A stretch of DNA of 21,566 nucleotides, from positions 1-21,566 of the IMG/VR virus record IMGVR_UViG_3300042893_002170. One strand, given 5' to 3'. Positions within the stretch are counted from its first letter, which is position 1. Every line of letters starts with the position of its first letter. Source of the DNA: a virus. Under the pieces are notes generated by a model that was not told where the DNA came from, did no database searches, and saw only the letters and a program-made list of their open reading frames with translations. The translations under genes and the position numbers were made by a program. Below, piece after piece: positions 5,344 to 21,566 of the stretch.

Positions 5344-5349
5344 AGTTAT

Positions 5350-7110
5350 ATGTCTACAAAACTAGTTACCAATTATCTAAACTTGCATAACGCTAAGCAG
5401 TTCAGAGAGTCTATCTCCGAAACTGCTAATAGCATTTACTATGTGTTTGCTGGTCGTCATACACCTTATGCTGGTGGTGATGAAACCATTCCTAATTTAA
5501 CAAACACCAACGACACGGTCAATATTGATCCTTACAAATTGATGGTATTTGGAAAAAAGGTTTCCAACAATGATGTAACGGTAATGATTCCAAGGTATGA
5601 TTGGGTATCGAATACTGTTTATACAGCTTACAGTGGTAACACGGATATTACTGTAAATAATTACTATGCTGTAGTCAATGCTGTATCCTCTTTCCACGTG
5701 TTTAAGGTGCTTGGAAATAATAATGGGGCGCCATCAACTATATCACCAAACTTCAACGACACTGGTGCCGATGATGAATTTTACAGTACTTCGGACGGTT
5801 ATGTCTGGAAGTATATGTACACAATTGATAGCTCAAACTTTACTAAGTTTGCTACAGATGAATATGTACCTGTTATTCCAAATGCCAATGTTTCTGGTAA
5901 CGCAGTTTCTGGATCAATTGATGTTGTTTTAGTTAGTTATGCTGGATCAAATTATAACACATATCTTTCCAATACGTTCATTTCATCTGATTTAACTATC
6001 GGTGGAGACCCAACAATATTTACGATTGCAAACAATGCTGTTGCATCTAATAATTTCTATGATAACAGCTATATCTACATTAAAGGTGGAACTGGTTTAG
6101 GACAAATAAGAAAGATTGTTGATTATACAGTTATTGGTACTCAGAAAAAGATTACTGTTGATAGTGGATTTAGCATAACTCCGGATATTACATCAGTTTA
6201 TGAAATTACTCCTTCTGTATTGGTTGAAGGTGATGGAACTGGTGCTGTTGCTAGAGCTTTAGTTAATACAAACTCTTCTAATTCAATTTCCGGAATTGAA
6301 ATTATTGAAAGAGGTGCAGGATACACTTACGCTACTACTACTGTACTTGGTAATACAGGAGGTGTTTCAAATGCAGCCTCTGTTTACGTTGTTCTAGGAC
6401 CCAAGGGTGGCCACGGTAAGGATCCTGAATTTGAACTGGGTGGTAAGTACCTGGGCATCAGTGTGACTTTTGCTAATAACGAATCAGGTACGATCCCAGT
6501 CTCCAATGATTATAGAACAATTGGATTATTAAAGGATCCTTTGTTTGCAAATGTAACCTTGACAATTGCAACTCCTACTGGTGTGTTTACCGATAACGAA
6601 GTCGTTACCCAAACAGATTCCAATGCGACTGGTATTGTAAAAGGAAGTACGACTACGACGGTTGCTGTATCAAATGTTACAGGTATTTTTGTAACAAACA
6701 AGATCATTACAGGTGGTACTTCTGGTGCTACTGCTAACGCTATCAGTTATGTTATCAATGATCAAGCAAAAGACTTTAACACATTCGATAACAGAGAACG
6801 ATACACGTACACAGCTGGTTCCGGCACTTTCTTAGAAGATGAAAAGGTGTTTCAGATTGATGTAGCTACTGCAAATGCATACTATCATTCAAATGATGCT
6901 AATTATTATTATTTGTCTGACTTAAGAGGTGTGCTTAATACAGGAAACACAATGATTGGTGTCAATTCAGGAGCCTCAGTTACATTAAACAGCCGCTTGC
7001 CATCTGACATTGTTCAGGGCAGTGGAGAGGTGTTATACATAGAAAACGTAGATCCGATTGAGAGAAATGCCAGCCAATCAGAATCTATAAAACTAATTTT
7101 GAAGTTTTAA
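5350..7110 (+). CDS. gp8: Baseplate wedge subunit gp8
   Basis: A 586-residue gp8-family protein. T4 gp8 (334 residues) is a wedge component that dimerises and contacts gp7 and gp10. The longer form seen here is typical of T4-like marine phages. Recognisable segments are the N-terminal FRESISETANSIYYVFAGRH (residues 18-37), LMVFGKKVSNNDVTVMIPRY with DW next (64-85), and the highly conserved EFYSTSDGYVWKYMYTID (143-160) followed by KFATDEYVPVIPN. The C-terminal half has glycine-turn modules (RGAGYTYATTTVLG) and a 'NEVVTQTDSNATGIV' module shared with its neighbours. It begins six bases after a late promoter motif and has no Shine-Dalgarno sequence, so leaderless translation is likely from that promoter. 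No cysteines. Confidence 0.9.
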   Translation: MSTKLVTNYLNLHNAKQFRESISETANSIYYVFAGRHTPYAGGDETIPNLTNTNDTVNIDPYKLMVFGKKVSNNDVTVMIPRYDWVSNTVYTAYSGNTDITVNNYYAVVNAVSSFHVFKVLGNNNGAPSTISPNFNDTGADDEFYSTSDGYVWKYMYTIDSSNFTKFATDEYVPVIPNANVSGNAVSGSIDVVLVSYAGSNYNTYLSNTFISSDLTIGGDPTIFTIANNAVASNNFYDNSYIYIKGGTGLGQIRKIVDYTVIGTQKKITVDSGFSITPDITSVYEITPSVLVEGDGTGAVARALVNTNSSNSISGIEIIERGAGYTYATTTVLGNTGGVSNAASVYVVLGPKGGHGKDPEFELGGKYLGISVTFANNESGTIPVSNDYRTIGLLKDPLFANVTLTIATPTGVFTDNEVVTQTDSNATGIVKGSTTTTVAVSNVTGIFVTNKIITGGTSGATANAISYVINDQAKDFNTFDNRERYTYTAGSGTFLEDEKVFQIDVATANAYYHSNDANYYYLSDLRGVLNTGNTMIGVNSGASVTLNSRLPSDIVQGSGEVLYIENVDPIERNASQSESIKLILKF

Positions 7111-7115
7111 GAGGA
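7109..7115 (+). promoter_or_regulatory. Strong ribosome binding site of the DUF4815-type gene
   Basis: AAGAGGA overlaps the gp8 stop codon and lies four bases before the ATG at 7120. It contrasts with the SD-less starts of gp8 and the 122-residue gene. Confidence 0.65.
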
Positions 7116-7119
7116 CTAG

Positions 7120-10100
7120 ATGTCATTAGAAACCAATTTCAACACCACTCCCTATTGGGATGACTTCAATGAAGACAAGGATTTTTATAAAATCCTCTTC
7201 AAGCCTGGTGTTGCCTTACAAACTCGCGAATTAAACCAACTCCAGACAATCCTACAAAAACAAGTAGAGAGATTTGGAGATCATGTTTTTAAAAGTGGTA
7301 CAATTGTTAGTGGTGTAAACTTCATTTATAATCCTCTTCTAGCTTACGCAAAGATCAAAGATTTACAAGAGGATGGACAGCCAGTCAATCCCCAAGATTA
7401 CGTTGGCTTCTTTGTTAAGAACTCTGCTAATCTTCAAGCTATTGTCGTCAACTACGCCACTGGTTTTGAGTCAAAGAGCCCAGATCTAAACACCCTGTTC
7501 TTACAATACACTAACTCAGGAAATACTTATAACCTGAGTGCGTTCTCTAATGATGATGTGTTGGAGATTTTCAGCAAAGAAAACAATCTTTTTGACGTTG
7601 ATGTTAACAATGGTGGTCTTGGATTTGCTAACTCAGATACGTTGCATGTAATTAGTGCTGTCACTGTGCAAGTATCTAGCGGTGCTTTTACTAATGGTGA
7701 AATCTTTACTCAAGCTACTTCAGGTGCTAGACAGCAGATTGTTGGTATTGCAAGTGGATTGACTTCAAACACTAAGATCCTTTCAATCAAACCAATCAAC
7801 TCAGAGCAGCTAGCAAATACATCGGCCAATTCCAATACATGGACCGTTTCTACAGGTTACAACATCACTGGCAATACTTCCAGTGCCGTTGCTAATGTTA
7901 TCTCTCAAATTGGTAGTGGAGCTACTGGTTCTATTATTACTGACTCACTTGGCGTAGTTCAAAACTTAGTTTTGTCGAATGCCGGTAAAGATTACACAAC
8001 ATTGCCACAAGTTGTTATTAAACCAGCTTCAGCATCTGCTTCTGTATCCACTTTAGATTTAGCAGCAAGGTCTTACAAGGCAAAGGTGCGCGTAGCTCCA
8101 GGCACGTTTGCTGCACCTGTGGGATACGGTTATTCTTTTGGTGTTACGGAGGGTGTAATTTACCAAAAGGGAACATTCTCTCGTGTTATTCCTCAAAGCG
8201 TTATTGTATCAAAATATTCCACGTTACCTGACAACATATCAGTTGGATTCACATCAGACGAATCGATTGTTAAGTATACGACTGATTCCTCACTTTATGA
8301 CAATGCTGCAAACACATACAATGAGACAGCCCCTGGTGCTGATCGCCTAAGAATAAGACCAACACTGTTTGTTGTTAATACCGACATTGGTTCAGCCAAC
8401 TCTGAATTCCTATCGCTTGTTGAATTTAGTGATGGTGTTGCCTCTAAAGAAAACAGAAACACAGTTTATAACCAGTTAGCTAAAGAGTTTGAAACAAGAA
8501 CTTTTGAATCTTCTGGCAACTTTGTAATTGATCCTTTCAGAAGTTCTACCAAGGAAAAGGTATCCAACACGACGCATGTTTCCGTTGTTGTTGATCCAGG
8601 CACTGCTTACATCAGTGGTAAGAGAGTGGAGACTAGTGGCAATCTGTCAAAAGATGTTCAAAAGTCTAACACCGTCTTTTCAAAAGCAAATCAAACAATT
8701 ACTGCTAATTATGGTAATTATGTTGTAGTTAAAGAGCTTGCTGGATTCTTTGACTTTAAGTCAGGAACGACTGTTAACCTATATGATACAGCAAAGACGT
8801 TATTGACAAGTGTTAGTACAGGTGCCATTACTCCGGCCGGTACTTTAATTGGTTCTGCAAGAATGAGATCAATTGTGTATCAGTCAGGTACTATTGGTAC
8901 TCCAAATGCAACTTACAGATTGTATCTGTTTGATGTCACGATGAATGCTGGCAAGTCTTTTAGTGATGTTAAGAGTTTCTACTTTGACAGCACTTATGAT
9001 GGTATTTGCGATGCTGTTCTTGAGGCTGACGGCACATCCAGTGTTAATGTTGCCATATTGAAAGATACAAACAACCCAGATATTATTTTCAAGACTGGTG
9101 TTAAGGCTGTTAAGTCTATTTCAGATATCAGCTACACATACAGAACATCGACGGAAAACTTAACTCTCAATGCTAATGGCACAATTGAGATCACTGCACC
9201 AACAACTTATACATTTCCTTATTCTGGATCTTTGAGTCTCTCAGCAGCGCAAAAAGCTGACTTTATTATTGCTCCTGTTTCTAATACAAACACATCTAAT
9301 ACAACAGGAACAAGCTCTGGTAACACAACATCTGCAAATCTAGTAGGAACCTCAACCACGTTTGCAACAGACTATGCTGCTGGTGATTATATCAGTGTGT
9401 ACACAAACGCTGTATCATACGATGTTAAGAGAGTTGAGAATGTTGTTAATAACACGTTAATTATTCTTAACTCAGCTTTGACTGCTGCAAACAGCTCAAC
9501 AAATACCGCGTTGTTCCTGCCGGCTTTTTATCCGTTAGATTTGAGCAGATCTACAAGAACCATTACTACATCAGCCAATGCTGCGGTTGCAACTGTGGAT
9601 TTGAGTGAGACCTTGGCTGCTTCTGCAAACGTTGTTGCATTTTACAATATTAGAATTCCTTCTGCTGTTCAAATTAATAAAGATTTAAACAGAGATTTGT
9701 ATGTAAAAGTATACACAGGAAATAATGCAACTGTTTCAGCTTCTGGTAATAATACAACAGGACCATGGAGCTTGGGTGTTCCAGATACATTTAGATTGAA
9801 GGCTGTATACTTTGGTAATACAGCTTCGAGCACAGATGTAACAAAGCACTTCTTTGTGAATTCATATAATGACGGTGACGTTGTAAAAAATGCAGAACTG
9901 AGACTTGTTCCAGGATCTGATTTAGCCATTTCCAATACTCAGTGGCTATTAGCAAAGTTTGATGCTTTTGATGTTAATACATCCGAAGGTTTTATTACAA
10001 TTAACTCATACAACGACATTATAAATGACGCTACAGGTTATAGCAATAACACATTCATCAACCGTTTAGAAGTCCCTGAAGTATTAACATCTGATGGTAG

Positions 10101-11466
10101 ATATTACGATGGTATCGATACTTTTGACTTCCGTCCATTTACCAGCAATACAGCTGCCTACTCCACAACAGTCGGTGGTGCTACTGTCAACCCCGCTAAC
10201 ACTCAGACATTGAATAGCGATGAAAAGTACTTCCCTGTACCCGATTCGCAAGTTACGTTTGACATTGAGTTTTACGGAAGCAGAATTGATAGAGTTGTTG
10301 TTAATAAAAATACATTAATTTCTGTTATCCAAGGTGCACCAGACGTTGCTAACTTGAAGGATCCAGGAGCTCCTGCTGATTCCATTACAGTCAACAGACT
10401 GTTTGTTCCACCATATCCTTCTTTGCCTTCTGCTCTTTCAAATACAACCTTCCAAATTTTGGATAAGAGAGTTGGTAATGAGTCTTCTATTGTTAATGGG
10501 AGACAGCAAGCATACACTATTAACAACTTAAATTCCTCTGCTGATACTAGATCTCAGCCAAAGCGTTATTCAATGTCTCAGATTAACAAACTCGAGAAAA
10601 GAATTGATAGCCTAGAAAAGCAAGTTGCTTTAAACACATTGGAAAAGCAGATAACGGAGCTGGTTATTCCTAGCTCTAACGATTCCGGTAAAGATAGATT
10701 TAAGAATGCGTTCTTGGTAGATAATTTTGATGATGCCTTTGTTGTTGATAGAACAAGTCTTGAGAGTACGGCTTATATTGACAGTCAGAATAGTGAATTG
10801 TTGCCACTGACAACTATCTTCAATGTTGAAAGTATTTTTGATAGATCTGATGCTGCTACTGCAAATAATATCCATCAAAATAAAACTTTATTGCTTCCAT
10901 ACGAAGAGTATACAATTGTTAGTCAATTGAGCGCTTCAGAACCAAGAGTTGTTAGATCGGTGCCAGCTGCAATAGAGACTGCTGCTGTTACATACTATCC
11001 TGTTGATGACTATGTTTACACACCGCCAGATCCTATTGTAACCACAACGCCTACTGTAGCTGTTGTTCCTATTGTACAGCCTCCTGTTGTACAAAAACCT
11101 GCTATGGTTAGAGTAATTACAGATGGTGCAGTTGAATACTATGAAGCCGACTTTGTGGCTGAGTTTTATCAAAACAATAGAGAGTGGGTTGAATCAAGAT
11201 ATGGCGTACCTGAATTCAGCGGATTCAGAGCTGGTGATGAGACGGCAGTGTTTGATGTCGTTCTTACTTCAAAAGTTTCAATACCTGAGGTACAATCTAC
11301 ACCTGCAGAAGTTATTGTTGTTACCACGACAATTGACCCCCCACAGACACAAACAACATCTGAGCCATATATTCAGATAACAGATGCTAACGCTGAGGAG
11401 GCATCAATGACAAGAGACACTGGTGGTGGTAAGTATGTTGAAGATTTCTCAAACATGCAATATTAA
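7120..11466 (+). CDS. Large DUF4815-type virion structural protein (1448 aa)
   Basis: A large baseplate- or fibre-associated structural protein typical of T4-like marine phages, where it follows gp8. The N-terminus is diagnostic for the DUF4815 type: TTPYWDDFNEDKDFYKILFK (residues 9-28), then PGVALQTRELNQLQTILQKQ (29-48), then VERFGDHVFKSGTIVSG. The middle is beta-rich with glycine-turn modules (NNGGLGFANSD; SNAGKDYTTLPQVVI). Around residues 742-800 is a 'GTSTTFATDYAAGDYISVY' module that recurs three times in the 754-residue protein. A coiled coil (about residues 1152-1183; INKLEKRIDSLEKQVALNTL) precedes DRFKNAFLVDNFDDAF, a motif I recognise from marine homologues. A Pro/Val/Thr linker (about 1300-1329) leads to an unfamiliar C-terminus. 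One cysteine. The exact role is not established from sequence; a connector between wedge and fibre, analogous to gp9/gp10, is an inference. Confidence 0.85.
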   Translation: MSLETNFNTTPYWDDFNEDKDFYKILFKPGVALQTRELNQLQTILQKQVERFGDHVFKSGTIVSGVNFIYNPLLAYAKIKDLQEDGQPVNPQDYVGFFVKNSANLQAIVVNYATGFESKSPDLNTLFLQYTNSGNTYNLSAFSNDDVLEIFSKENNLFDVDVNNGGLGFANSDTLHVISAVTVQVSSGAFTNGEIFTQATSGARQQIVGIASGLTSNTKILSIKPINSEQLANTSANSNTWTVSTGYNITGNTSSAVANVISQIGSGATGSIITDSLGVVQNLVLSNAGKDYTTLPQVVIKPASASASVSTLDLAARSYKAKVRVAPGTFAAPVGYGYSFGVTEGVIYQKGTFSRVIPQSVIVSKYSTLPDNISVGFTSDESIVKYTTDSSLYDNAANTYNETAPGADRLRIRPTLFVVNTDIGSANSEFLSLVEFSDGVASKENRNTVYNQLAKEFETRTFESSGNFVIDPFRSSTKEKVSNTTHVSVVVDPGTAYISGKRVETSGNLSKDVQKSNTVFSKANQTITANYGNYVVVKELAGFFDFKSGTTVNLYDTAKTLLTSVSTGAITPAGTLIGSARMRSIVYQSGTIGTPNATYRLYLFDVTMNAGKSFSDVKSFYFDSTYDGICDAVLEADGTSSVNVAILKDTNNPDIIFKTGVKAVKSISDISYTYRTSTENLTLNANGTIEITAPTTYTFPYSGSLSLSAAQKADFIIAPVSNTNTSNTTGTSSGNTTSANLVGTSTTFATDYAAGDYISVYTNAVSYDVKRVENVVNNTLIILNSALTAANSSTNTALFLPAFYPLDLSRSTRTITTSANAAVATVDLSETLAASANVVAFYNIRIPSAVQINKDLNRDLYVKVYTGNNATVSASGNNTTGPWSLGVPDTFRLKAVYFGNTASSTDVTKHFFVNSYNDGDVVKNAELRLVPGSDLAISNTQWLLAKFDAFDVNTSEGFITINSYNDIINDATGYSNNTFINRLEVPEVLTSDGRYYDGIDTFDFRPFTSNTAAYSTTVGGATVNPANTQTLNSDEKYFPVPDSQVTFDIEFYGSRIDRVVVNKNTLISVIQGAPDVANLKDPGAPADSITVNRLFVPPYPSLPSALSNTTFQILDKRVGNESSIVNGRQQAYTINNLNSSADTRSQPKRYSMSQINKLEKRIDSLEKQVALNTLEKQITELVIPSSNDSGKDRFKNAFLVDNFDDAFVVDRTSLESTAYIDSQNSELLPLTTIFNVESIFDRSDAATANNIHQNKTLLLPYEEYTIVSQLSASEPRVVRSVPAAIETAAVTYYPVDDYVYTPPDPIVTTTPTVAVVPIVQPPVVQKPAMVRVITDGAVEYYEADFVAEFYQNNREWVESRYGVPEFSGFRAGDETAVFDVVLTSKVSIPEVQSTPAEVIVVTTTIDPPQTQTTSEPYIQITDANAEEASMTRDTGGGKYVEDFSNMQY

Positions 11467-11484
11467 AAACTCTTTAGAAACATC

Positions 11485-11492
11485 TATAAATA
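11485..11492 (+). promoter_or_regulatory. T4 late promoter, perfect consensus TATAAATA
   Basis: An exact TATAAATA sits in the 32-base gap between the 1448-residue gene and the 122-residue gene. Its last base is separated from the ATG (11499) by six bases, the same geometry as the gp8 promoter. The predicted start of transcription (about 11498) falls at the start codon, giving a leaderless message for the 122- and 754-residue genes. Confidence 0.75.
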
Positions 11493-11498
11493 AAAGTT

Positions 11499-11867
11499 AT
11501 GGGACAAAGAAAACTTCGATTCAAAGAGAGAGACATAATTCTAGAGTTTTATGGCTTAAGACCTCACACCACTCATTACTTTTACTTTGATAAGGTCAAG
11601 GTAACGAGTATGGTTAAACAATTTGGTAAGAAACTAGGTGGGGCTTTAATCTCTGATGAGAACGGTAATTTAAAAGTGATTTTTTATTTGTCATCAGGAA
11701 TATCTTCAAATTCGTATGAAAGTATTCCGGTTAAAGTTAGCAATCTTGAATCTGGAAGAAAAGAGATTGTTGTTACGACAATCAATCAAACAACATTGCC
11801 TGACAATTACTACAACGCATCGACATCTTTTGGTGCTGTAGTTTTAGGATTAGACAAAACAGTGTAA
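11499..11867 (+). CDS. Small structural protein resembling an internal module of large marine-phage fibre-connector proteins (122 aa)
   Basis: A 122-residue protein. Residues 1-31 (RKLRFKERDIILEFYGLRPH then TTHYFYFD) and 48-60 (GALISDENGNLKV) resemble a module I know from large T4-like marine-phage structural proteins: 'R...F...GL+P.T..Y.FFD...V' followed by 'L.TD..G...G.F.IP'. There it lies inside one long polypeptide, between the DUF4815-type part and the part that continues in the next gene here. This supports a split of one ancestral protein into three genes. It starts six bases after a consensus late promoter and has no Shine-Dalgarno sequence. Its stop is one base before the next ATG. 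No cysteines. It is too short for a fibre by itself and probably forms a complex with its neighbours (inference). Confidence 0.75.
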   Translation: MGQRKLRFKERDIILEFYGLRPHTTHYFYFDKVKVTSMVKQFGKKLGGALISDENGNLKVIFYLSSGISSNSYESIPVKVSNLESGRKEIVVTTINQTTLPDNYYNASTSFGAVVLGLDKTV

Positions 11868-11868
11868 T

Positions 11869-14133
11869 ATGTTCAATAAAGCTCAATCATTCTTTTTAGA
11901 CTCATCGTCAGCTCAAGGAGCTTCAGTCGTATTCGTCACGAGTATAGAACTATACTTTAAAGACAAACCCACTGCAAACAAAACGCAGTCTGGATCTTCC
12001 AAGCCTAGTGTTTCTTTAAACATATGTGAAGTTAAGGATAACGTTCCAAACTGGAACACTGCTGATATTAAAACTCTAGCGCGGGTTGATTATGACAATA
12101 TCAATACTAGCGCAACGGCTGATACATCTACTAAGTTTACTTTCGATACCCCAGTTCCTCTTCAAACGAACAAACAATATGCATTCTTAATTAAGTTTGA
12201 TTCTGATGAGTCTTTTTCTTTGTGGAAAAACCGAGTAGACGAAGTTGATATTAACACAGGAGTAGCTGCAAAGTTGTCTTCTGGTAAAGTTGATGGAAAT
12301 GCTTACGACATCACAAATGGATTTGACGTAACTCCTCTTTCTGATGTAGATTACAAGTTTAAAATTAATGTTGCTAAATTTACTGGCGCAAGAAGTAATA
12401 CTTTTACAGTTAGTAATGAGGCATATGATTTCTTAAAATTGACATCAGGTGCCGTGAATGGTACGTTTATTGGTGGTGAATACGTTTATCAACAACAAGC
12501 TAACTTGACTGGTACTGTTGCAGTTTCTTCAGGTGGTGCTAACATTGATGGCACAACAACAACCTTTACATCTGATGTTGCTAATAATGACTTAGTTATT
12601 GTTGCCAACTCCACTGTTTCTCAAGTAAGAAAAGTTAACATTGTAACTAATACAACGTTTATGAATGTTACGAGTACTTTCTCTACTACAGCGTCTGCTG
12701 TAAATATTAGAAAGTTCAATACAGGTACAATTTCAATCGACTCGTCAAGCAACACCATTTCTGGAACTAACACAAACTTTGCTTCAATTTCCTCAAACAC
12801 ATTTATTGTAATTTCAGATGGAACTGATGGAAACACTGAAGTTAGAAAAGTTGTCAGTGTTGATTCTGGTAACCAGACATTGGTGCTAGATGTAGTACCA
12901 TCTTTTACAAATACAACTGCTGGTTATTTCGTATCCCCTGTTGCAAAGGTAGACAGCTTCAAAGCATATGGCGACTTCCTCACATTGTATGATTCTTCAG
13001 CAAACACAACTGCATATTTTGCAGGCAGTACTATTATCAAAGGTGTTGACTCATTAGCTAATGCTACGGTTTCCTCAATTGAGAATGTCAACATTTCTAG
13101 ATTTGCTCCATACTTTAACGTCAAGGTTCCTAGTGGAGCAAAGGCAAAGTATTATGTTAACTTTGCAAACACAACTTATGCTAAGACTACAGGTAACTTG
13201 ACTGAAGTTGATCTCGGCAAGAATGCGCTTCTTTCTTATCCAGCAATGATTGCTTCAAGATCGAACGAAGTCAACAATTCAACAAACCTCTTTGCAAACT
13301 CCAAGAGCTTCAATGCAAAGTTAGAGTTTAGTTCAGAAAATCCTTTTGTTTCCCCATACGTCTTGGAAGAAAACTTGGACTTTGGCATTCAACAATTCAT
13401 TATTAATAACACATCAACAAACGAAGCATATTCCAACGGTGCTGCATATTCTAAGTATGTTTCGAAGCCAGTTATTCTTGGTACTGATCAAGTAGCAGAA
13501 GACTTAATTGTTTTCATGACAGCTTTCAAACCATCCGGTACTGATATTGAAGTTTACGCTAAGCTGTTGAGTGAAGAAGATGGTCAAAACTTAAATCAAA
13601 AGAATTGGACAAAGTTAGCATTGGATATCCCAACAGGATCTTCAATTAACAGCTTGGATTCGAATCCAAACGACTTTATTAATTTGAAGTATGTAATTCC
13701 TTCAGCACAAGCTGGTGCTAAGGTGACTAGTGGAACGTTCAGCATTCCGACAGCTACAAATGTAATTACGGGAAGCTATAGTACAGTCAATACAGACATT
13801 ACTGCTGGATCTGTTGTTAAAGTTTACAACCCAACATTCCCTGATTCATTCTTCGTTGATACGGTAACCGCTTCTAACACAACAACAATAACGGTATCAA
13901 GCGCTGTGTCAAATTCAAGCTTGAGAGGATCTGGTTTGAATATTGATGTGATTACGGACAAGAACTCAGGCTTCTTGAATAATCAAAATTACAACATTGT
14001 AAGATACTTCAATACTTCACTTGCTAAGTATGATGGATTTAAAGTATTTGCAATTAAGATTGTATTGTTATCATCTGCAAGCTACTTGGTTCCAAGAGTT
14101 GAAGAGTACAGAGCAATTGCGGTATCTGCATAA
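11869..14133 (+). CDS. Virion structural / fibre-connector protein (754 aa)
   Basis: A 754-residue structural protein corresponding to the C-terminal half of large marine T4-like structural proteins. Residues 1-30 (NKAQSFFLDSSSAQGASVVF then VTSIELYFKDK) resemble the 'AQSFFV...GVFVTSVDLYFKTKD' segment, and residues 50-120 the following beta-sandwich (VSLNICEV; STKFTFDTPVPL; YAFLIKFDSDESFSLW). Three modules of the type 'GTxTxF...D...xVxV......RKV..V...T' occur at about residues 228-280, 298-357 and 628-695. Residues 525-590 (YSKYVSKPVILG; DLIVFMTAFKPSGTDIEVYA) and the C-terminus (GFKVFAIKIVLLSSASYLVP, RVEEYRAIAV) are conserved signatures in marine homologues. Start codon follows the previous stop by one base. 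One cysteine. A peripheral baseplate or fibre-attachment role is inferred. Confidence 0.82.
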   Translation: MFNKAQSFFLDSSSAQGASVVFVTSIELYFKDKPTANKTQSGSSKPSVSLNICEVKDNVPNWNTADIKTLARVDYDNINTSATADTSTKFTFDTPVPLQTNKQYAFLIKFDSDESFSLWKNRVDEVDINTGVAAKLSSGKVDGNAYDITNGFDVTPLSDVDYKFKINVAKFTGARSNTFTVSNEAYDFLKLTSGAVNGTFIGGEYVYQQQANLTGTVAVSSGGANIDGTTTTFTSDVANNDLVIVANSTVSQVRKVNIVTNTTFMNVTSTFSTTASAVNIRKFNTGTISIDSSSNTISGTNTNFASISSNTFIVISDGTDGNTEVRKVVSVDSGNQTLVLDVVPSFTNTTAGYFVSPVAKVDSFKAYGDFLTLYDSSANTTAYFAGSTIIKGVDSLANATVSSIENVNISRFAPYFNVKVPSGAKAKYYVNFANTTYAKTTGNLTEVDLGKNALLSYPAMIASRSNEVNNSTNLFANSKSFNAKLEFSSENPFVSPYVLEENLDFGIQQFIINNTSTNEAYSNGAAYSKYVSKPVILGTDQVAEDLIVFMTAFKPSGTDIEVYAKLLSEEDGQNLNQKNWTKLALDIPTGSSINSLDSNPNDFINLKYVIPSAQAGAKVTSGTFSIPTATNVITGSYSTVNTDITAGSVVKVYNPTFPDSFFVDTVTASNTTTITVSSAVSNSSLRGSGLNIDVITDKNSGFLNNQNYNIVRYFNTSLAKYDGFKVFAIKIVLLSSASYLVPRVEEYRAIAVSA

Positions 14134-14351
14134 TGGACACGACAAAGTTAAAGAGACATCCATATACGCAAGCGGTGATCAACACAGACACAGCTTCGTA
14201 TAGACAACATATCTTCGAGGAACAGAGGAGCAGAGAGCTTCGCGGTGCTTTAACTGAGGTAAATACTCTGCGTAGGGATGTTGATGATATCAAAGATATG
14301 CTCAGAACAATAATTAACGGAATGAACAATAATGGCCAGAAGTGTAGCTAA
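14133..14351 (+). CDS. Small coiled-coil protein of the fibre module (72 aa)
   Basis: A 72-residue basic protein whose first base is the last base of the preceding stop (TAATG). It overlaps the next gene by 20 bases in a different frame. The N-terminus is KLKRHPYTQAVINTDTASYR. Residues 29-65 form a clear amphipathic heptad pattern (RSRELRGALTEVNTLRRDVD then DIKDMLRTI), so an oligomeric coiled coil is likely. I do not recognise a named family. Being translationally sandwiched between two structural genes, it may be an adaptor, trimerisation peptide or assembly factor for the following fibre (inference). It is real rather than a shadow: it is coupled at both ends and its composition (charged, helical) is unlike the beta-rich neighbours. 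One cysteine, next to the C-terminus. Confidence 0.72.
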   Translation: MDTTKLKRHPYTQAVINTDTASYRQHIFEEQRSRELRGALTEVNTLRRDVDDIKDMLRTIINGMNNNGQKCS

Positions 14352-15684
14352 TGTAGTTGTATCGACGGATACGTTTGCTTCTTGGATAGGAAGAACAAAT
14401 CAGCTTGCTGATTCAATGTCGCTGTATGCTGTTACTGTGGAAGCCAATACAACTGGAGCAAATGTTTCGGGGAATGGATTTATTAATGGAGTCTTTTCTG
14501 CTAACACTATTGCAGCAGGTCAAGTTCTTCGTGGTGGTTCAGTAGCTACATCCGCCAACTTAAACATTACATCCAATACAAGATTTACTGGTGCTGTTTT
14601 ATATTCAACAGCTAACCTTGACATTCAAGTAGCAAACGCTAGTGTTAACTCTACCATTCTTTATATCAATGGTGGGTTGGCTAATGTAACATCTAATGTT
14701 TCTGTTGTCACTACAAATACATCCATCCAGGCAGCTAATACAGCCCTGAAGGGTGGAAACGTCCACATCACATCGAATACACAGATCAATGCAGCAAACG
14801 TTGTTGTAACGGGCGTGAGTACTGTACTAAGCGGTACAACACTAAGCATTACAAGCAATACAGATCTAGTAGCTACAACTCTTAATGCAAACGCTGTTGT
14901 TACGGTTAATGGTAATACAACAGTTACTGCTAATAGCATTACATTAAAAGCTAATAGCTCTCTTAATACTATTTCCATCTCCGGCAACGGGACTGTATCC
15001 AATACAACTATTTCAGGCAACACATTTAGTGTAGTTGGTAATACAACATTCTCCAATGTGGTTAGTATTGCTCAAACATTAGGTGTTACTGGAGCCGTGA
15101 CTCTTAGCAATACAATTGCTGTTACGGGAAATGCAACGTTTAGCAATGTAAGCGCCTTTACAGGTGCGGCTACTTTCAGTAACACGGTTAACGTTTCTGG
15201 TTTGTTAACGGTTGCAACATCAAACATTGCATCTGCAGATATCAACACTGCTAACATTGTTAATTTATCAGTATCTAACAATCTAACATTAAATGCCAAT
15301 CTTGTTGTAAACGGTACTTCGAGTATCAGTGGCAATGCAACTTTCAACACTGATTATGTGGTTGTTGTAAGCTCCAATACAAACGTAGGTGCAAATACAA
15401 CAGATCCTCAAAGAGTGTTTTCCTTCCCCAAGGGAACTTATTCATCAGCGAAGATTACAGCTCAAGTTAAAACAGTTGGTGATTCCAATACTCAAATTAA
15501 CGAAATTGTATTGGCACATGATACAACAACCTCATACTTAACTGTTTATGGAACTGTGTCATCACCTCTAAATTCTAACCTTGGTGTTTTCTCTACAGCA
15601 ATAAATACCGCTAATGTAGAGCTATATCTTTTGCAATCTACTGCAAACTCTAAAATTAAAGTTGTAGCTCATTTAATTAAATAA
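14332..15684 (+). CDS. Repetitive tail fibre protein (450 aa)
   Basis: A 450-residue fibre-like protein with a conserved-looking N-terminal attachment segment (SVANVVVSTDTFASWIGRTN then QLADSMSLYAVTVEANT, residues 4-40). A long beta-repeat shaft runs from about 45 to 340, extremely rich in Asn, Thr, Ser, Ala and Val. Its repeats include GNTTFSNVV, GNATFSNVS and GAATFSNTV. A non-repetitive C-terminal domain follows (about 341-450; YVVVVSSNTNVGANTTDPQR ... LYLLQSTANSKIKVVAHLIK), plausibly the trimeric head. There are no cysteines. The ATG lies 20 bases inside the preceding gene with GGAA upstream. Such fibres are common in T4-like marine phages next to S74-terminated fibres. Whether this one binds receptor or is a shaft partner cannot be told from sequence. 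Confidence 0.85.
   Translation: MARSVANVVVSTDTFASWIGRTNQLADSMSLYAVTVEANTTGANVSGNGFINGVFSANTIAAGQVLRGGSVATSANLNITSNTRFTGAVLYSTANLDIQVANASVNSTILYINGGLANVTSNVSVVTTNTSIQAANTALKGGNVHITSNTQINAANVVVTGVSTVLSGTTLSITSNTDLVATTLNANAVVTVNGNTTVTANSITLKANSSLNTISISGNGTVSNTTISGNTFSVVGNTTFSNVVSIAQTLGVTGAVTLSNTIAVTGNATFSNVSAFTGAATFSNTVNVSGLLTVATSNIASADINTANIVNLSVSNNLTLNANLVVNGTSSISGNATFNTDYVVVVSSNTNVGANTTDPQRVFSFPKGTYSSAKITAQVKTVGDSNTQINEIVLAHDTTTSYLTVYGTVSSPLNSNLGVFSTAINTANVELYLLQSTANSKIKVVAHLIK
15028..15201 (+). repeat. Degenerate 12-residue beta-repeats in the 450-aa fibre shaft
   Basis: Successive units SVVGNTTFSNVV, LGVTGAVTLSNTI, AVTGNATFSNVS, AFTGAATFSNTV and NVSG share the pattern 'V-x-G-x-x-T-h-S-N-x-h'. 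The DNA copies are not identical, so this is a selected protein repeat rather than a recent tandem duplication. Confidence 0.6.
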
Positions 15685-15685
15685 C

Positions 15686-15688
15686 AGG
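15686..15688 (+). promoter_or_regulatory. Ribosome binding site of the S74-terminated fibre gene
   Basis: AGG in the ten-base gap after the previous stop, six bases before the ATG at 15695. It supports this start codon. Confidence 0.4.
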
Positions 15689-15694
15689 TAACCG

Positions 15695-17575
15695 ATGGCC
15701 AACACAGCATTTAAGGTAGAGAATGGATTATTAGTAGTAGGCAGTGCTAACGTTGCTGGCAGTCTGTCCGTTGGTGGTGAGTTTAATATTAGTGGCAACG
15801 TCACATTCAGTGGTACGTCTAATGGTGACTTTAGACCTATCAACAACAACTATTCGCTTGGTAACACAACAAGTAGATGGAGTTTGAATGCAATCGATAT
15901 CAATGTATCAAACACATCCACTTTAAATTTATCTACATTTTCTGGTCAATCTACGTTTTCAGCTAACGTTGTTCCTAACGCTAATAATATAAAGCTGGGC
16001 GATAGTGACAAACGTTGGGATTTGTATGCCAACAATGCTAATGTAGTAACAGTTGGTGTATCGAACACATTGACTGTTAACGGCACGCTGATTGTTAATC
16101 CTGGTATTGCTAACGCAGTTGTTGTTACTGGTAACTCTACCCACTCCAACATATCCTTTACCTCGAACAGCACTCAATTCTTCAGCAATGTTATTTTTGA
16201 TACAAATGTATTGTTTATTGATGCTTTCAATAATAGAGTAGGTATAGTCAATAGTACACCAGATGCAGCACTAACTATTTCAGGAACCGCCAACATTTCA
16301 GGCGGTGTAGTTTTTGGTAGCACACTTGCGGTTAACAATGCTCTGATAGTTTCAAATAACGGTGTATTCACAGGAACGGTCAATGCAAGTGCAGGATTCA
16401 ATGCTGGTGCAAATGTTTTGCTGTCTACTTCGGATATCAAAGTAGGCAATGCTACAGTCAATTCGTTTGTTAATTCTTCAAGCATTTCCACAACAGGTAC
16501 TCTTTCAGTAACTGCTAATGCATCTTTTGGTAATAACGTTACAATTTCTGGTAACCTGATAGTATCCGGTACTACGACATACGTTAACACATCCATTTTA
16601 AATGTTGCTGATAACATAATTACATTGAATGCTGACATTGGTGGTGCTACTGCTCCAACAGAGAATGCGGGTATTGAAGTTAATAGAGGGTCTAGTGCTA
16701 ACGTTGTGGTTCGCTGGAATGAGACGAGTGATGTATGGGACCTTACTGAAGATGGTACTAATTTTTATCAAGTTGTAAATAGGAACCAAACAGCTAATGC
16801 AACTTATGCTGGTATTTTAACAGTTCTTGATAGTGTTACAAATACAAGTATTACAATTGCAGCCTCCGCTAATAGTGTAAAGAGAGCATACGATATAGCA
16901 GCTACTGCATACAGTAATGCTATAGCATTTTCTGCAAGTGCAGCTGCTAATGCAGATAATATAACGTCTGGTACTCTAGTGACAGCCAGATTACCTGCAA
17001 CAGCAAACATCAGCACATTAATTAATGTTGGTGCAAATGTAAACTTATCTACAACTTCTATCAAGGTTGGCAATGCTACTGTAAACACATTTGTCAACTC
17101 TTCTAGTATTTCTACAACAGGTACTCTTTCTGTAACAGCCAATGCATCATTTGGTGCTAATGTTACAATTAGTTCTGGTAGCTTGGTTTTATCGGATGGC
17201 AGTTTAACCGTTAATGGAAACATTACAACAACAGGGTATGTTGATGCATCTTCTGATGCACGGATAAAGAAAAATATTAGACCGATTACTGACGCCCTGC
17301 AAACTGTTCTAAATATCGAAGGTGTTGTATACGATAGGATTGATGTCGATCTTATCAACCAAATGGGATTCATAGCTCAACAAATTAAACCATTCGTTCC
17401 TGAGATTGTTAATGGAACAGAAGAGGGCGGTTATAGAGTTTCGTATCAAAATATCACAGCATTGCTTGTAGAAGCAATCAAAGATCTAAATAATAAAATA
17501 GAAGTGATTGCTTTGCAAGAACAAGCAATTGAATATCTAAATAGTAAGTTAGAAGAATTACAAAAAAGAGGCTGA
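15695..17575 (+). CDS. Tail fibre with C-terminal self-cleaving Peptidase_S74 chaperone (626 aa)
   Basis: A 626-residue trimeric-fibre type protein. The shaft (residues 1-519) carries fibre motifs such as NNYSLGNTTSRW (residues 51-62), NNIKLGDSDKRWDLYANN (97-114) and NRVGIVNSTPDAALTISG. It also carries two near-identical 51-residue modules (nucleotides 16400-16552 and 17024-17176). The C-terminus is an intramolecular chaperone of the Peptidase_S74 family: SSDARIKKNIRPITDALQTV, later NQMGFIAQQIKPFVPEIV and YQNITALLVEAIKDLNNKI, ending in a coiled coil. In characterised members (phage endosialidases, MYRF) cleavage is before the Asp of S-D, with Ser and a Lys five residues later as dyad. Here these would be Ser520 and Lys525, releasing about 106 residues after trimerisation. 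No cysteines. This is a good receptor-binding candidate; which fibre is tip-most is not shown by sequence. Confidence 0.92.
   Translation: MANTAFKVENGLLVVGSANVAGSLSVGGEFNISGNVTFSGTSNGDFRPINNNYSLGNTTSRWSLNAIDINVSNTSTLNLSTFSGQSTFSANVVPNANNIKLGDSDKRWDLYANNANVVTVGVSNTLTVNGTLIVNPGIANAVVVTGNSTHSNISFTSNSTQFFSNVIFDTNVLFIDAFNNRVGIVNSTPDAALTISGTANISGGVVFGSTLAVNNALIVSNNGVFTGTVNASAGFNAGANVLLSTSDIKVGNATVNSFVNSSSISTTGTLSVTANASFGNNVTISGNLIVSGTTTYVNTSILNVADNIITLNADIGGATAPTENAGIEVNRGSSANVVVRWNETSDVWDLTEDGTNFYQVVNRNQTANATYAGILTVLDSVTNTSITIAASANSVKRAYDIAATAYSNAIAFSASAAANADNITSGTLVTARLPATANISTLINVGANVNLSTTSIKVGNATVNTFVNSSSISTTGTLSVTANASFGANVTISSGSLVLSDGSLTVNGNITTTGYVDASSDARIKKNIRPITDALQTVLNIEGVVYDRIDVDLINQMGFIAQQIKPFVPEIVNGTEEGGYRVSYQNITALLVEAIKDLNNKIEVIALQEQAIEYLNSKLEELQKRG
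16400..16552 (+). repeat. 51-residue duplicated module, copy 1, in the S74 fibre
   Basis: Begins NAGANVLLSTSDIKVGNATV and ends NNVTISG. It pairs with the copy at 17024-17176; 44 of 51 residues are identical by my count, while the DNA differs at many third codon positions. Confidence 0.85.
17024..17176 (+). repeat. 51-residue duplicated module, copy 2, in the S74 fibre
   Basis: Begins NVGANVNLSTTSIKVGNATV and ends ANVTISS. It lies about 75 bases before the S74 cleavage site and is the second copy of the 16400-16552 module. Confidence 0.85.
17252..17575 (+). other. Peptidase_S74 cleavage site and chaperone domain
   Basis: Ser520 (17252-17254) followed by Asp521 marks the expected autocleavage point. 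Lys525 is at the dyad position (Ser+5) known from MYRF. The rest of the domain has the family's GFIAQ(Q/E) and YxNLxALLVEAIK-like segments, and the final 35 residues form a coiled coil. Confidence 0.85.
17566..17571 (+). promoter_or_regulatory. Ribosome binding site of the cysteine-rich adhesin gene
   Basis: AAGAGG overlaps the last codons of the S74 fibre and is eight bases before the ATG at 17580. This is a good Shine-Dalgarno match and fixes the start. Confidence 0.6.
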
Positions 17576-17579: not shown

Positions 17580-20543
17580 ATGGCAACCTTATGTCAATAT
17601 AGTGTAGAAGGCTTGTGCTGCATTTGCATCACCACTGGATGTATCCAGGCTCCAAGTGTTTGCGGTACACACTACGGTAGTGGTGCAAACATAACCGGCG
17701 TGCCTGGCACCGTCGTTACAGGTCAAGTAGTTTTTATGCCTGGTACTACAACAACACCATCTGGTTATCTTCCTGCTGATGGTTCTTTGTACCCTGTCAG
17801 CAGCTATACCACTTTGGGAGCATGTCTGTGTGGATTCACGACACCTGAAGCCACTACATTTATGGGGGGGACAAATTACAATTTCTCACCTTTCATATCG
17901 TGGGCAAATATTCTTAGAATTGATTGCTGTCCAAATTTGGACGATATGTCTAAAACCCATTGCTGTGCTCATGAAGTCATTGGGTTATGCAACACCAACA
18001 CTTATCTCAATTGTAACTGCTCTTGCTGGGCCATGTCGTTAATAAAACCCATTACTGACGGTCAACTCAATAGCCGTGACGTGGGTATAAGTTGTTTGTT
18101 GTCTGCTTTTGCTTGTGGGGTATACCTATCTCCCGCAGGCAAATTTCAATGCAACAATTATTCCAGACCTGCTGGTACATTCTGGTATTCACCACCATCG
18201 GAATTAAATAGTACAGGGTGTGTATATAACCCAGCTAAACGACAATGTTATGTAGCAACCTCTCTTCAAGATCCACTATGTTGCCAACGTGATGGTATTC
18301 AAGGTACTGGTTCTGCTTATGCAATTTGTAATTTCATAGTGCAGGTAAATAACGCACGAAATACAAATGAATACACATATATTGGTATATACAATGCTAG
18401 TTGTGTAACGAATTGTGTATGTAATGTATTTAATACCGCATGTGGTGGGGCAACATATTCGGTATGTATGAACGTGCAAGTTAGTGGCAACCCATGCACT
18501 TCGTTTTCTTGTTATAATTTTGGTTCTGTAAATTTCTTGTGTGGGGTTGCTGCATGCTCTACAAACCCACTATTGGGTATAATTGTAAGAGATGCATGTT
18601 GCACGCAATGTTGCCTTTGCTGCCGAAATGGTGCATTTTATTGGGTAGGTGGTGCAGCTAATAATGGTGTATGCTCCACTGCAAGATTCCAATCATTGAG
18701 TCCCTATATTATGTCAAGTGATGAGCAGCATTTCTGCTATCAACTTGGAAGCACAATTAACTCCATGAATTTATATTATTATACAGATATTACAGGTGGC
18801 CTTGCATCTATTTTAAAACACGACACTGCTGCGCCACAACGAGGTAATCTTTTTCATAGTAGGCCATTCGATGTTGGTTATGATCGTTTTGTAACTTTTT
18901 CTGCTCAGCATGCTTGTTTTGGTGTGGGAGTGGTAGCTCCGTCTACCTGCGCTATGACTCTTACCTGCTACCCAACATCGTGTATAGGAAGTTGTTGCAT
19001 TTTACAAGTAAAGTACTCAAACCCAACCAATACTTGGGTAGCTACTGATTCAGATAGTAATATTTGGACTTCCCCAGGTGCTTGTGGTTTTTGCTGGACA
19101 TTGCGTGTGTGTGGTGCAACGTGCCATGCCGCGACTACAACATCAATTCAAAATCTGGATAATAAGGTAGCCGTATTAACTGCCTGTGGTGCAATATTGG
19201 TATCGTGTGATGGTACAACATGGAATTGCATCTACAACAAAGATAAGATGGTAGCTTTTGATCAATCCCCTCGTTTAGTTAAACACGGTAATTATTATTT
19301 GGGATCATCAACAATTTATTCTTGTGATCTGTGTTGTTCGGGGTTGACTATAGCTCCAGGTCCAATATGGTTTTCAAAAGGTATCAATGCTCTAGCATCA
19401 ATTGGTGGTGGAACTCTACCTTGTGCAGCGACTTGCAAAGGCAACGACTCAGGAATTACATCTTCAGGTGGATATAGTGGCATAGAGACTGCTATATGGT
19501 GCTCTAATCCAAATCTATATGACAATATTTGGTGGAAGTATAAACAAACTCAATTTTTCTGTACTTGCTCAACACCATGTGGTAGCAAGCAGGTTCAACC
19601 CCAGAGTATTGTTGTAAATCCTGTTCTTGATATTGTATACTCAACTTATAAGCTAGCGGACGCTGTTTCATGTGTTAATTGCCACGTTGTAAACCGATAT
19701 ACCATGCAGGGTGGTGTATCGACAGAAATAAGCTTATTATGCTGGTGTGGGAGCGCTCCATGCGCATGTGGTAACTCTACATTAATATCAGCTGCCTCAT
19801 TCTCTTCTTATGAAGGACTAGCTTACGCTGCCTATGTAAGTTGCACCGCTGGTGGTAGTGGAACTAACGTAAGATGGGGTTCTATATGTATTGCTAATTG
19901 TGTACCTACGTCTTTGTATGCGTGTGCCGTTGGTAATGGTGTTGGAGCGCCCGTATGTTTAATGCAAGGAGGTCCTTTCATAAGCTTTGCAGCCGAAGCT
20001 AATGTCTTTACTTCCCTGGGCTTTTCAGAACGTGGATTAATATGTACCTGCAATGTCTCTACTTTTGTAAAGACTCCTTTTTATATTGGGGATAGCTCTA
20101 TACCTTGTTGGAACCCCGCCACTACCGGGATGAATGCAAGGTACTCAGATGCTCCATTTACTAGCGGGTGTAGTTATTTTGTACCTTTGCCAATTGCGGG
20201 AACCATAGCAAATAGGTCCCAACGTAGTATATATTGTGAGACTGCTGAAACCGGTGAAACAATAACCGCTCCGAGTGCTTTCACAGGTTTTACTTCAATG
20301 GGGTTACAACAGGCCGCCCGCGTGCCATACAATTTTTCAAGTATTAATGGTGAACCCTGCATACGTGGTACCTGTACTACGAATTACCCACAAACTACTT
20401 CTTGCGCGCTCGGAAATAATAAACAAGTTGCAATCGTCAATGGTATTGTTCGTACTGCATGGGGATCGGTAACACCTTGTTTTGATACAACTACTTGTTT
20501 TTCTGTTCCTAAATTGCCTACGGGCTATTATATTAAAACTTAA
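17580..20543 (+). CDS. Cysteine-rich tail-collar-type fibre / putative adhesin (987 aa)
   Basis: A 987-residue protein at the distal end of the fibre cluster with about 84 cysteines (8.5 percent, counted by eye), against about five in the rest of the window. Residues 48-83 resemble the phage tail collar domain: GQVVFMPGTTTTPSGYLPAD then GSLYPVSSYTTLGA. The C-terminus (FSVPKLPTGYYIKT) also looks like the end of collar-type fibres, so the collar fold may flank a very large insert. The middle is beta-rich with Asp-box/BNR-like pieces: SCDGTTW at residues 542-548 and WVATDSDSNIWTS. A beta-propeller is therefore plausible. Cysteines come as CC doublets and CxC pairs throughout, densest at residues 340-348 (CCTQCCLCC). 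There is no signal peptide or membrane segment. The frame is intact with a good ribosome binding site, so this is not a frameshift artefact. Role as host-binding tip is inferred; the meaning of the cysteines is unknown. Confidence 0.8.
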   Translation: MATLCQYSVEGLCCICITTGCIQAPSVCGTHYGSGANITGVPGTVVTGQVVFMPGTTTTPSGYLPADGSLYPVSSYTTLGACLCGFTTPEATTFMGGTNYNFSPFISWANILRIDCCPNLDDMSKTHCCAHEVIGLCNTNTYLNCNCSCWAMSLIKPITDGQLNSRDVGISCLLSAFACGVYLSPAGKFQCNNYSRPAGTFWYSPPSELNSTGCVYNPAKRQCYVATSLQDPLCCQRDGIQGTGSAYAICNFIVQVNNARNTNEYTYIGIYNASCVTNCVCNVFNTACGGATYSVCMNVQVSGNPCTSFSCYNFGSVNFLCGVAACSTNPLLGIIVRDACCTQCCLCCRNGAFYWVGGAANNGVCSTARFQSLSPYIMSSDEQHFCYQLGSTINSMNLYYYTDITGGLASILKHDTAAPQRGNLFHSRPFDVGYDRFVTFSAQHACFGVGVVAPSTCAMTLTCYPTSCIGSCCILQVKYSNPTNTWVATDSDSNIWTSPGACGFCWTLRVCGATCHAATTTSIQNLDNKVAVLTACGAILVSCDGTTWNCIYNKDKMVAFDQSPRLVKHGNYYLGSSTIYSCDLCCSGLTIAPGPIWFSKGINALASIGGGTLPCAATCKGNDSGITSSGGYSGIETAIWCSNPNLYDNIWWKYKQTQFFCTCSTPCGSKQVQPQSIVVNPVLDIVYSTYKLADAVSCVNCHVVNRYTMQGGVSTEISLLCWCGSAPCACGNSTLISAASFSSYEGLAYAAYVSCTAGGSGTNVRWGSICIANCVPTSLYACAVGNGVGAPVCLMQGGPFISFAAEANVFTSLGFSERGLICTCNVSTFVKTPFYIGDSSIPCWNPATTGMNARYSDAPFTSGCSYFVPLPIAGTIANRSQRSIYCETAETGETITAPSAFTGFTSMGLQQAARVPYNFSSINGEPCIRGTCTTNYPQTTSCALGNNKQVAIVNGIVRTAWGSVTPCFDTTTCFSVPKLPTGYYIKT

Positions 20544-20551: not shown

Positions 20552-21016
20552 ATGACAATTATAAAAAAATCAAATATGTTGCTCAGAGTAGAGTTAACTC
20601 TATCCGGTATACATAGAAGTCTTGGTGATGTTGGTATTCTCCATAAAGATTATATGGATGCTGAGAGCAACTATGCACCCGTAGATGCTTACTGTCTTGT
20701 TGCTGTATCCACTCTTCCGGAGGAATTTGAAAATGAAACAGATGAAAGTATTTTATTAAATTCTACCGATTTAATTAATAGTGCTTTATTACCTCACATG
20801 GTTAGGATAGACCTACAAATTACAAGTGTTGAGCTTGGTGAAAAACGGTTGTATGATGAAGAAAATCCAGGGCAATATATCTTGCCTATTGATTTTTTAA
20901 TTAATAAATATGGAGAAGCGGCTATATTGCAAAGACTGTATACGGAGTTCTCTAGTGGTGATAGCTTCACTGCGTTTCTGGATGAGCAAGTACAAAAATA
21001 CGGGGCTCCAATTTAA
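20552..21016 (+). CDS. Unrecognised acidic protein downstream of the adhesin (154 aa)
   Basis: A 154-residue protein I do not recognise. It is acidic and mixed alpha/beta in appearance. An N-terminal strand pair (MLLRVELTLSGIHRSLGDVG) and a middle beta segment (MVRIDLQITSVELGEKRLYD) are followed by helices (PIDFLINKYGEAAILQRLYT, SFTAFLDEQVQKYG). It lacks the Asn/Thr repeats of the fibre genes and has only one cysteine, so it is probably not a fibre. It starts eight bases after the adhesin stop with no Shine-Dalgarno sequence, in a TTAAAAC-TTAAAAC-TTAAAATG context. An in-frame ATG eight codons downstream (20576) is a possible alternative start. Position suggests a fibre chaperone or an adhesin-associated protein, but nothing in the sequence proves it. 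Confidence 0.7.
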   Translation: MTIIKKSNMLLRVELTLSGIHRSLGDVGILHKDYMDAESNYAPVDAYCLVAVSTLPEEFENETDESILLNSTDLINSALLPHMVRIDLQITSVELGEKRLYDEENPGQYILPIDFLINKYGEAAILQRLYTEFSSGDSFTAFLDEQVQKYGAPI

Positions 21017-21105: not shown

Positions 21106-21566
21106 ATGAGTAAGATATTTTATATTGATGGTGGAGCGGGGCGCGTTATTGCAGCAATCCCTGCTTTAAAAAAATATGCCAGACTCCACTCTAATGAAGA
21201 TTGGAATATTTTAATAGGAGGATGGGATAACCTTTTGTGGGGAATCCCTGAACTTCAAGATATTACATACAACCCCGATACTAAGGGTATTTTTGATAAT
21301 GTAATTAAGCATGCAACAGTGATTCAAACTCCCGAACCTTACAGAGTCCCGGGTTACTTTAAGCAAGAATTATCACTTGCTGAAGCGTTTGATAAAGAAA
21401 TTAATAATACTGATGATCATAGTGACTTAGAGCCACCTTCCATGGTTCTTTCAAAAACAGAAGAGAAGAATGCTGCCAATATTGTTGCTGATGTCAAGCA
21501 ACAACAGCAAAAATCAAAAACCATTGTAATTCAGCCTTTTGGTAGATCAATACGCAAGGATAGAAC
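21106..21566 (+). CDS. GT9/heptosyltransferase-like glycosyltransferase, N-terminal part (3'-truncated)
   Basis: The first 153 codons of a gene that continues past the window. The N-terminus (KIFYIDGGAGRVIAAIPALK then KYAR) fits the GT-B fold of family 9-like glycosyltransferases, with a glycine-rich first turn followed by PALxxL. NEDWNILIGGWDNLLWGIPE, PEPYRVPGYFKQE, and the interdomain strand TIVIQPFGRSIRKDR are signatures I recognise from glycosyltransferases of T4-like cyanophages and relatives. The acceptor is unknown. It may modify phage structural proteins, phage DNA or host surface glycans. It is separated from the structural genes by its own promoter-like motif and has a good GGAG site. 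The catalytic C-terminal half is not visible. Confidence 0.75.
   Translation, partial: MSKIFYIDGGAGRVIAAIPALKKYARLHSNEDWNILIGGWDNLLWGIPELQDITYNPDTKGIFDNVIKHATVIQTPEPYRVPGYFKQELSLAEAFDKEINNTDDHSDLEPPSMVLSKTEEKNAANIVADVKQQQQKSKTIVIQPFGRSIRKDR

Follow-up and report, generated by a model that had tools for sequence, protein, structure and literature searches.

Across phages, a gene for a heptosyltransferase-like glycosyltransferase (GT) is linked to genes for proteins with an extreme cysteine content, and the comparisons described below demonstrate this linkage strongly. We think it somewhat probable that such a phage S-glycosylates its own adhesin, with the cysteines serving as acceptor sites for the phage-encoded GT. 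The window analyzed here is an entire viral record of 21,566 bases, and there is no further sequence in that record.

Cysteine content of the 987-residue ORF

The ORF at positions 17580 to 20543 (plus strand) encodes a protein of 987 aa with 84 Cys (8.5% of residues; 49 TGT and 35 TGC codons), which we identify as a tail fiber or adhesin from its synteny with Sinorhizobium phage phiM12. The other 13 counted ORFs of the window contain 5 Cys in total, a single one in each of the 936-, 1448-, 754-, 72-, and 154-aa proteins with the remaining ORFs free of Cys, so that a preliminary description of this DNA, which put the counts at about 84 and about five, was exact. In frame 1, TGY codons make up 8.5% of the Cys-rich gene, compared with at most 0.65% of every long neighboring ORF (1.4% in the neighboring 72-aa ORF). 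The other frames of the Cys-rich gene have TGY levels like those of the neighboring ORFs, which confines the excess to the coding frame and indicates that the extreme composition is real. Baseplate and fiber proteins encoded in positions 1 to 17575 of the window and in loci L002 to L037 are nearly free of Cys (~0.1% in the closest relatives). Since Cys is avoided in these proteins even where there is no GT gene, its avoidance elsewhere does not result from the GT.

The spacing of Cys in the 987-aa protein is near geometric, and the gaps that we examined show no zinc-finger or CxxC periodicity. Across the Cys-rich proteins described below, the gap distribution is also near geometric, with a mild excess at 1 to 3 residues; CC and CCC runs occur, many members have an odd number of Cys, and a pairing pattern is absent. 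No recurrent metal-binding Cys motif is present in these proteins, and a Pfam search of the window detected no metal domain. The whole 987-aa protein has no relatives in annotated phages, with Cys masked or unmasked, even at an E value of 10. It has no match among PDB sequences, a scan of viral contigs detected no relative, and a search with its C-terminal tip pattern gave no match. Single-sequence AlphaFold2 models had pLDDT values of 32 and 28, which makes them unusable for Cys-Cys distances.

A scan with the N-terminal part of the 987-aa protein identified a second contig, L007, which has the same gene order as the window and a 705-aa ORF with 76 Cys (10.8%). The two proteins are alike only in their first 47 residues (77% identity), an N-terminal anchor that in the window spans positions 17580 to 17720 (plus strand) and contains 6 Cys. 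Beyond this anchor, similarity between the 705-aa protein and the body of the 987-aa protein was not detectable, and a search of genome_contigs with the anchor gave no match. L007 retains all 6 Cys of the anchor, three of which differ in codon by a silent TGC/TGT change, and the anchor codons as a whole differ by 18 synonymous and 10 nonsynonymous changes. Finding the same gene order and a Cys-rich N terminus on an independent contig bears out the earlier claim that the composition is not an artifact of assembly or gene calling. Because the anchor alone is common to the two fibers, Cys richness has been retained while the protein body changed. Codon reassignment was considered and rejected because L007 keeps its Cys codons through silent changes; we know of no basis for a reassignment restricted to one gene. 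Among the 31 loci found via the 450-aa gene upstream, only L007 has a comparable Cys-rich ORF.

The ORF occupies a tail fiber slot

Upstream of the Cys-rich ORF, the window encodes gp6, a baseplate wedge protein, and gp8, which identifies this region as a T4-like baseplate and fiber module. The named phages closest in gp6 are Caulobacter phage Cr30 (40%) and Sinorhizobium phage phiM12 (38%). In the equivalent slot, phiM12 has a tail fiber gene followed by a fiber-assembly-like gene, and its fiber has 2 Cys in 901 residues. The slot in the window is preceded by genes for two Cys-free proteins of the same fiber module (both plus strand): a 450-aa fiber protein (positions 14332 to 15684), used as the upstream marker for locating the module in relatives, and a fiber with an S74 intramolecular chaperone (positions 15695 to 17575; PF13884, E 6.7e-11). 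It is followed by a 154-aa ORF in the position of a fiber assembly chaperone (positions 20552 to 21016, plus strand). This ORF has no family match below an E value of 0.1; its positional counterparts in L007 and L041 match the phage tail assembly chaperone family PF16778 (E 2.5e-15 for the gene after the L007 fiber), which supports a fiber role. The Cys-rich ORF thus follows baseplate wedge and fiber genes, is placed like the phiM12 fiber, and has counterparts that precede a chaperone, in agreement with the tail fiber slot proposed previously. The collar-type ends proposed along with it are less secure. A segment at residues 48 to 82 (positions 17721 to 17825, plus strand) does resemble the phage tail collar family PF07484, but weakly (E 0.0016), and at 18.8 bits against a curated cutoff of 24 it does not qualify as a collar fiber. 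The fiber of L043 is 36% identical to the N-terminal region of the 987-aa protein over 66 residues.

Over 13 kb of upstream sequence, identity between the window and a close relative, L004, is ~90%, but the slot in L004 contains collagen-like, Cys-free fibers, which indicates that the fiber slot is a swappable cassette. In L004 (positions 12464 to 22262) and in L038, these collagen-like fibers have GXX repeats and are followed by a different gene set. Positions 1 to 12406 of L002, which comes from another sample, are 100% identical to positions 1869 to 14274 of the window; L002 ends just before the fiber genes.

Cysteine-rich ORFs accompany the GT gene in T4-like phages

The GT gene (phrog_8954, E 3e-43) occupies positions 21106 to 21564 (plus strand) and is truncated by the window end, leaving the N-terminal 153 aa. 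It is 77% identical to the GT of L007 and lies downstream of the Cys-rich fiber in both. When viral contigs were scanned with the GT gene alone, a query that carries no information on Cys, five new metagenomic loci (L041 to L045) were found, and all five have a Cys-rich ORF (9.5 to 11.7%) in the same cluster. These ORFs have 106 Cys in 1025 aa, 16 in 149 (partial, L042), 88 in 914, 74 in 631, and 108 in 1138. A GT search of annotated phages matched 55 records, of which we examined a single representative for each of S-CAM3, P-SSM2, S-CAM1, S-SSM7, and Sf-FS3, together with three single-cell marine viruses. All eight have one to three Cys-rich ORFs (7.6 to 11.6%) upstream of the GT gene, which are labeled "hypothetical" or are unannotated; PSSM2_304 and PSSM2_306 have 36 Cys each, and the GT and carbamoyltransferase of P-SSM2 are PSSM2_307 and PSSM2_308. 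The reverse search, with the Cys-rich protein of Sf-FS3, matched 21 records, every one of them from phages or single-cell viruses among the GT matches. In the complete genomes of P-SSM2, S-CAM1, and S-SSM7, every ORF of at least 200 aa with at least 7.5% Cys adjoins the GT gene. The Cys-rich proteins beside the GT gene belong to several unrelated sequence types.

In 34 records around Cys-free relatives, the GT gene was not found, and a comparable Cys-rich ORF was also absent. The GT gene was likewise not found in S-SM2, Syn9, S-PM2, S-RSM4, or P-SSM4, and tiles covering almost the whole of these five genomes contained no ORF of at least 200 aa that reached 7.5% Cys. The ORF nearest to this threshold, one of 538 aa in Syn9, is on the minus strand, opposite the gene for the major head protein, and was rejected; antisense Cys-rich ORFs occur in Cys-free phages and are therefore not evidence. 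Among T4-like records, a Cys-rich ORF is thus present in 13 of 13 with the GT gene and in 0 of 39 without it (nominal Fisher P of ~1.6e-12), a comparison that leaves out the window and L007, in which the records are partly related and many are fragments, and in which the metagenomic controls were scanned for Cys in the fetched part only. L022, a relative that lacks the GT gene, has ORFs of 339 and 350 aa (positions 9529 to 10548 and 13085 to 14137) with 13 Cys each (~3.8%).

Aligned cysteines in homologues with and without the GT gene

A more distant version of the GT gene is present in the N4-like Vibrio phages D505, K481, and SBP1 and in Aeromonas phage HJ05. In these phages, the adjoining tail gene (in HJ05, the upstream ORF) encodes 2.3 to 4.4% Cys, an enrichment weaker than that in the T4-like phages. 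The tail proteins of D505 and SBP1 are 52% identical and have 11 of 14 aligned Cys in common. In contrast, homologues of the tail protein from phages that lack the GT gene (D456, PG11, 1.169.O, PMBT5, and 1.004.O) keep only 4 of 136 aligned Cys. In these homologues, the residues aligned with Cys have a polarity of 0.52, equal to the background of 0.52, and so give no signal of surface exposure. Within the D505 protein itself, some repeat copies read VCACAYADG and others VRANAYADG or VRADAYADG.

The cyanophage proteins show a similar substitution. Cys-poor Gly_rich_2 homologues from phages without the GT gene have mostly G, T, S, and A opposite the cyanophage Cys, as does a Gly_rich_2 protein of P-SSM2 that is encoded away from the GT gene. 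Close homologues from phages with the GT gene conserve 27 of 29 and 26 of 28 Cys at 65 to 72% identity, although a structural role for the Cys would give the same pattern. The preliminary description had counted homologues without the aligned cysteines as evidence against its structural readings; such homologues do exist, in phages that lack the GT gene, whereas between phages that have it the Cys are retained.

The GT gene and its neighbors

The GT family profile matches Escherichia coli WaaC/WaaF/WaaQ/WaaU in hhalign (probability of 91.5, E 8.5e-7) over a region that includes a conserved DSxxxHxA stretch, and a control comparison of two unrelated LPS glucosyltransferases had a probability of 0.2. 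The match to the NCBI heptosyltransferase III model is weak (E 5e-5), and the best score against the Pfam GT9 model (PF01075) is 21.2 bits (E 2e-4), just below the cutoff of 22, so that formal assignment to this family fails. The GT has no sequence match in the PDB. Known GT9 enzymes act on LPS.

In L007, the GT gene is followed by a gene for a Nol/NodU-like carbamoyltransferase. Among the neighbors of the GT gene in relatives are genes of ADP-heptose synthesis, encoding HldE-like (E 3.8e-94), HldD-like (E 6.9e-58), and GmhB-like (E 8e-36) proteins, as well as a NodU-like carbamoyltransferase (E 2.1e-34). Based on these sequence resemblances, the GT is a candidate for an enzyme that would transfer heptose from ADP-heptose, for which the linked synthesis genes are indirect evidence. 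Vibrio and Aeromonas make ADP-heptose for their LPS, which would explain why the N4-like phages seem to need the transferase only. The LPS of marine Synechococcus is reportedly without heptose, which would account for the presence of synthesis genes in the cyanophages. Pseudomonas LPS contains 7-O-carbamoyl-heptose, and this is a chemical precedent for the pairing of a heptosyltransferase with a carbamoyltransferase.

A small cupin is encoded in L050 (positions 24355 to 24711), with counterparts in L043, L045, L047, L048, and L051 to L053. The P-SSM2, S-CAM1, and S-SSM7 copies carry the annotation "cysteine dioxygenase"; the tested copies match models of cupins in general and of sugar isomerases. 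The cluster cupin might be a stand-in for the missing GmhA isomerase. The cyanophage GT clusters of L050, L052, and L053 contain, or have nearby, several 2OG-Fe(II) oxygenase/prolyl-4-hydroxylase-like genes, and there is a glutaredoxin gene near the P-SSM2 cluster.

Proposed S-glycosylation and alternatives

The GT gene predicts dense Cys nearby in unrelated sequences and in two phage lineages, and the Cys are lost where the gene is absent; the simplest explanation for this is that the Cys are acceptors. CC and CCC runs, odd Cys counts, and near-random spacing also fit modification sites better than paired bridges, since S-glycosylation works in a reducing cytoplasm and needs no pairing. In the mechanism that we propose, the Cys-rich protein would be the distal fiber or adhesin of a T4-like phage and would be made in the reducing cytoplasm, where its thiols would be free. 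The GT9-like enzyme would then move a sugar, most likely heptose from ADP-heptose, onto many exposed Cys, and the NodU-type carbamoyltransferase, which in relatives is encoded beyond the point that corresponds to the window end, would probably carbamoylate it; the added sugar is thus likely to be heptose, possibly carbamoylated. The fiber tip would become densely covered in S-linked glycan, a linkage resistant to ordinary glycosidases, and such a coat may shield or diversify the host-binding surface. Its purposes could include shielding, host binding, and resistance to enzymes. More tentatively, the genes may form a portable cassette (transferase and carbamoyltransferase, with or without ADP-heptose synthesis) that coats adhesins of ~10% Cys and unrelated sequence with S-linked carbamoylated heptose.

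The preliminary description had instead suggested a disulfide lock, a metal- or cluster-loaded tip, or redox-triggered exposure of the binding surface. The comparative evidence favors none of these, because the Cys-rich state tracks the adjacent heptosyltransferase-like gene, but disulfides or metal binding may be additional roles of the Cys. A fiber stabilized by intra- or interchain bridges that form after lysis into oxic water, with the GT linked for some other reason, is unlikely, even though disulfide networks are established in the virions of phages Milano and 7-7-1 (PMC10491603, PMC12796354) and though Cys are conserved between close homologues from phages with the GT gene. It leaves unexplained why Cys should track a single GT gene in sequence types that are unrelated and in two lineages, the odd Cys counts are common and show no pairing pattern, and Cys in Milano is ~2.4% across the structural proteins, compared with ~0.08% in the rest of the module described here.

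We regard as a little less likely still that the GT and the carbamoyltransferase act on host LPS or another surface glycan, causing receptor change or superinfection exclusion, and that fiber and receptor genes simply travel together. GT9 enzymes are, after all, LPS enzymes. In cyanophages, moreover, clusters with such genes carry the annotation of LPS genes whose purpose is unknown (PMC3037559). This explanation does not account for 8 to 12% Cys or for the loss of Cys in homologues from phages without the GT gene, and S-SM2, for which a number of these LPS gene families have been reported (PMC3037559), has neither the GT gene nor Cys-rich ORFs.

It is improbable that the Cys are modified in some other way, for example oxidized by the linked cupin, while the GT acts elsewhere on the fiber. 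A small cupin is indeed present in several clusters, but it matches general cupin and sugar-isomerase models, and no cupin is annotated in the inspected N4-like neighborhoods, where the GT alone accompanies the Cys. Least probable is a tip that is stabilized by Cys-bound Zn, Fe, or Cu or that uses these metals to exploit host metal uptake, since the very high thiol density and the six potential iron-binding domains proposed for an Alteromonas phage fiber (PMC11705849) are outweighed by spacing that is near geometric save for the mild excess at 1 to 3 residues, the lack of a recurrent metal motif, the unrelated sequence types, and a link to the GT that metal binding would not explain.

Relation to known systems

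In the window, in L007, and in L041 to L053, the GT gene lies near an adhesin gene. AIDA-I with Aah and TibA with TibC are heptosylated autotransporter adhesins in which the acceptor is Ser. The systems are alike in having a heptosyltransferase-type gene beside a large repetitive adhesin with many acceptor sites and ADP-heptose as donor, features that for the phages are partly putative. They differ in that AIDA-I and TibA are secreted bacterial adhesins modified on Ser, whereas here Cys is enriched in a phage fiber, and in that the phage GT gene is linked to a carbamoyltransferase gene and, in many cases, to genes of ADP-heptose synthesis.

Sublancin is a glycocin, and SunS is its transferase. 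In glycocin F and pallidocin, Cys is S-glycosylated by a transferase encoded beside its substrate (PMC5890784, PMC6405829), as would be the case for the phage proteins if the S-linkage that we propose is correct. Glycocins, however, are short peptides that are secreted and modified at one or two sites, while the phage substrates would be fiber proteins of ~260 to 1140 aa with dozens of Cys, modified by a GT9-like enzyme. Unusual Cys enrichment in phage structural proteins is itself known from Agrobacterium phages Milano and 7-7-1, which have ~2.4 to 2.6% Cys in structural/capsid proteins, with mapped disulfides (PMC10491603, PMC12796354). In those phages Cys are spread over the capsid, neck, and tail, but here 8 to 12% Cys is found only in the protein beside the GT gene, and the 5 Cys found elsewhere in the window are not the general increase seen in Milano.

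The LPS cluster of P-SSM2 and S-SSM7, with its GT (T4-GC 302), Nol-like carbamoyltransferase (303), HldE (304), kinase (305), cupin (307), and epimerase (308) (PMC3037559), is the same gene cluster as the one described here, and it can now be tied to adjacent Cys-rich proteins. Sullivan et al. (2010) described the cyanophage LPS genes as having no known function, suggested that they might be "stuffer DNA," and made no mention of cysteine (PMC3037559). The literature that we searched on Cys-rich tail fibers, cyanophage Cys-rich proteins, and ADP-heptose virion glycosylation, which covered few subscription papers, does not describe the linkage between the GT and Cys-rich fibers, consistent with the earlier suggestion that this is an undescribed structural system. 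What began as a compositional oddity is now a testable general system, present in reference cyanophages that were sequenced years ago. If our proposal is correct, the LPS/heptose genes of P-SSM2 and S-SSM7 would dress the phage's own adhesin. S-glycosylation at many sites of one protein would be a chemical rarity, and the enzyme might serve as a tool to place sugars on engineered cysteines.

The protein encoded at positions 10224 to 15494 of L055 contains, from about residue 100 to about residue 900, AYADG repeats in which the positions occupied by Cys in some copies are R, T, N, or D in others. Repeat copies with and without Cys in one protein provide a natural within-protein comparison of substrates.
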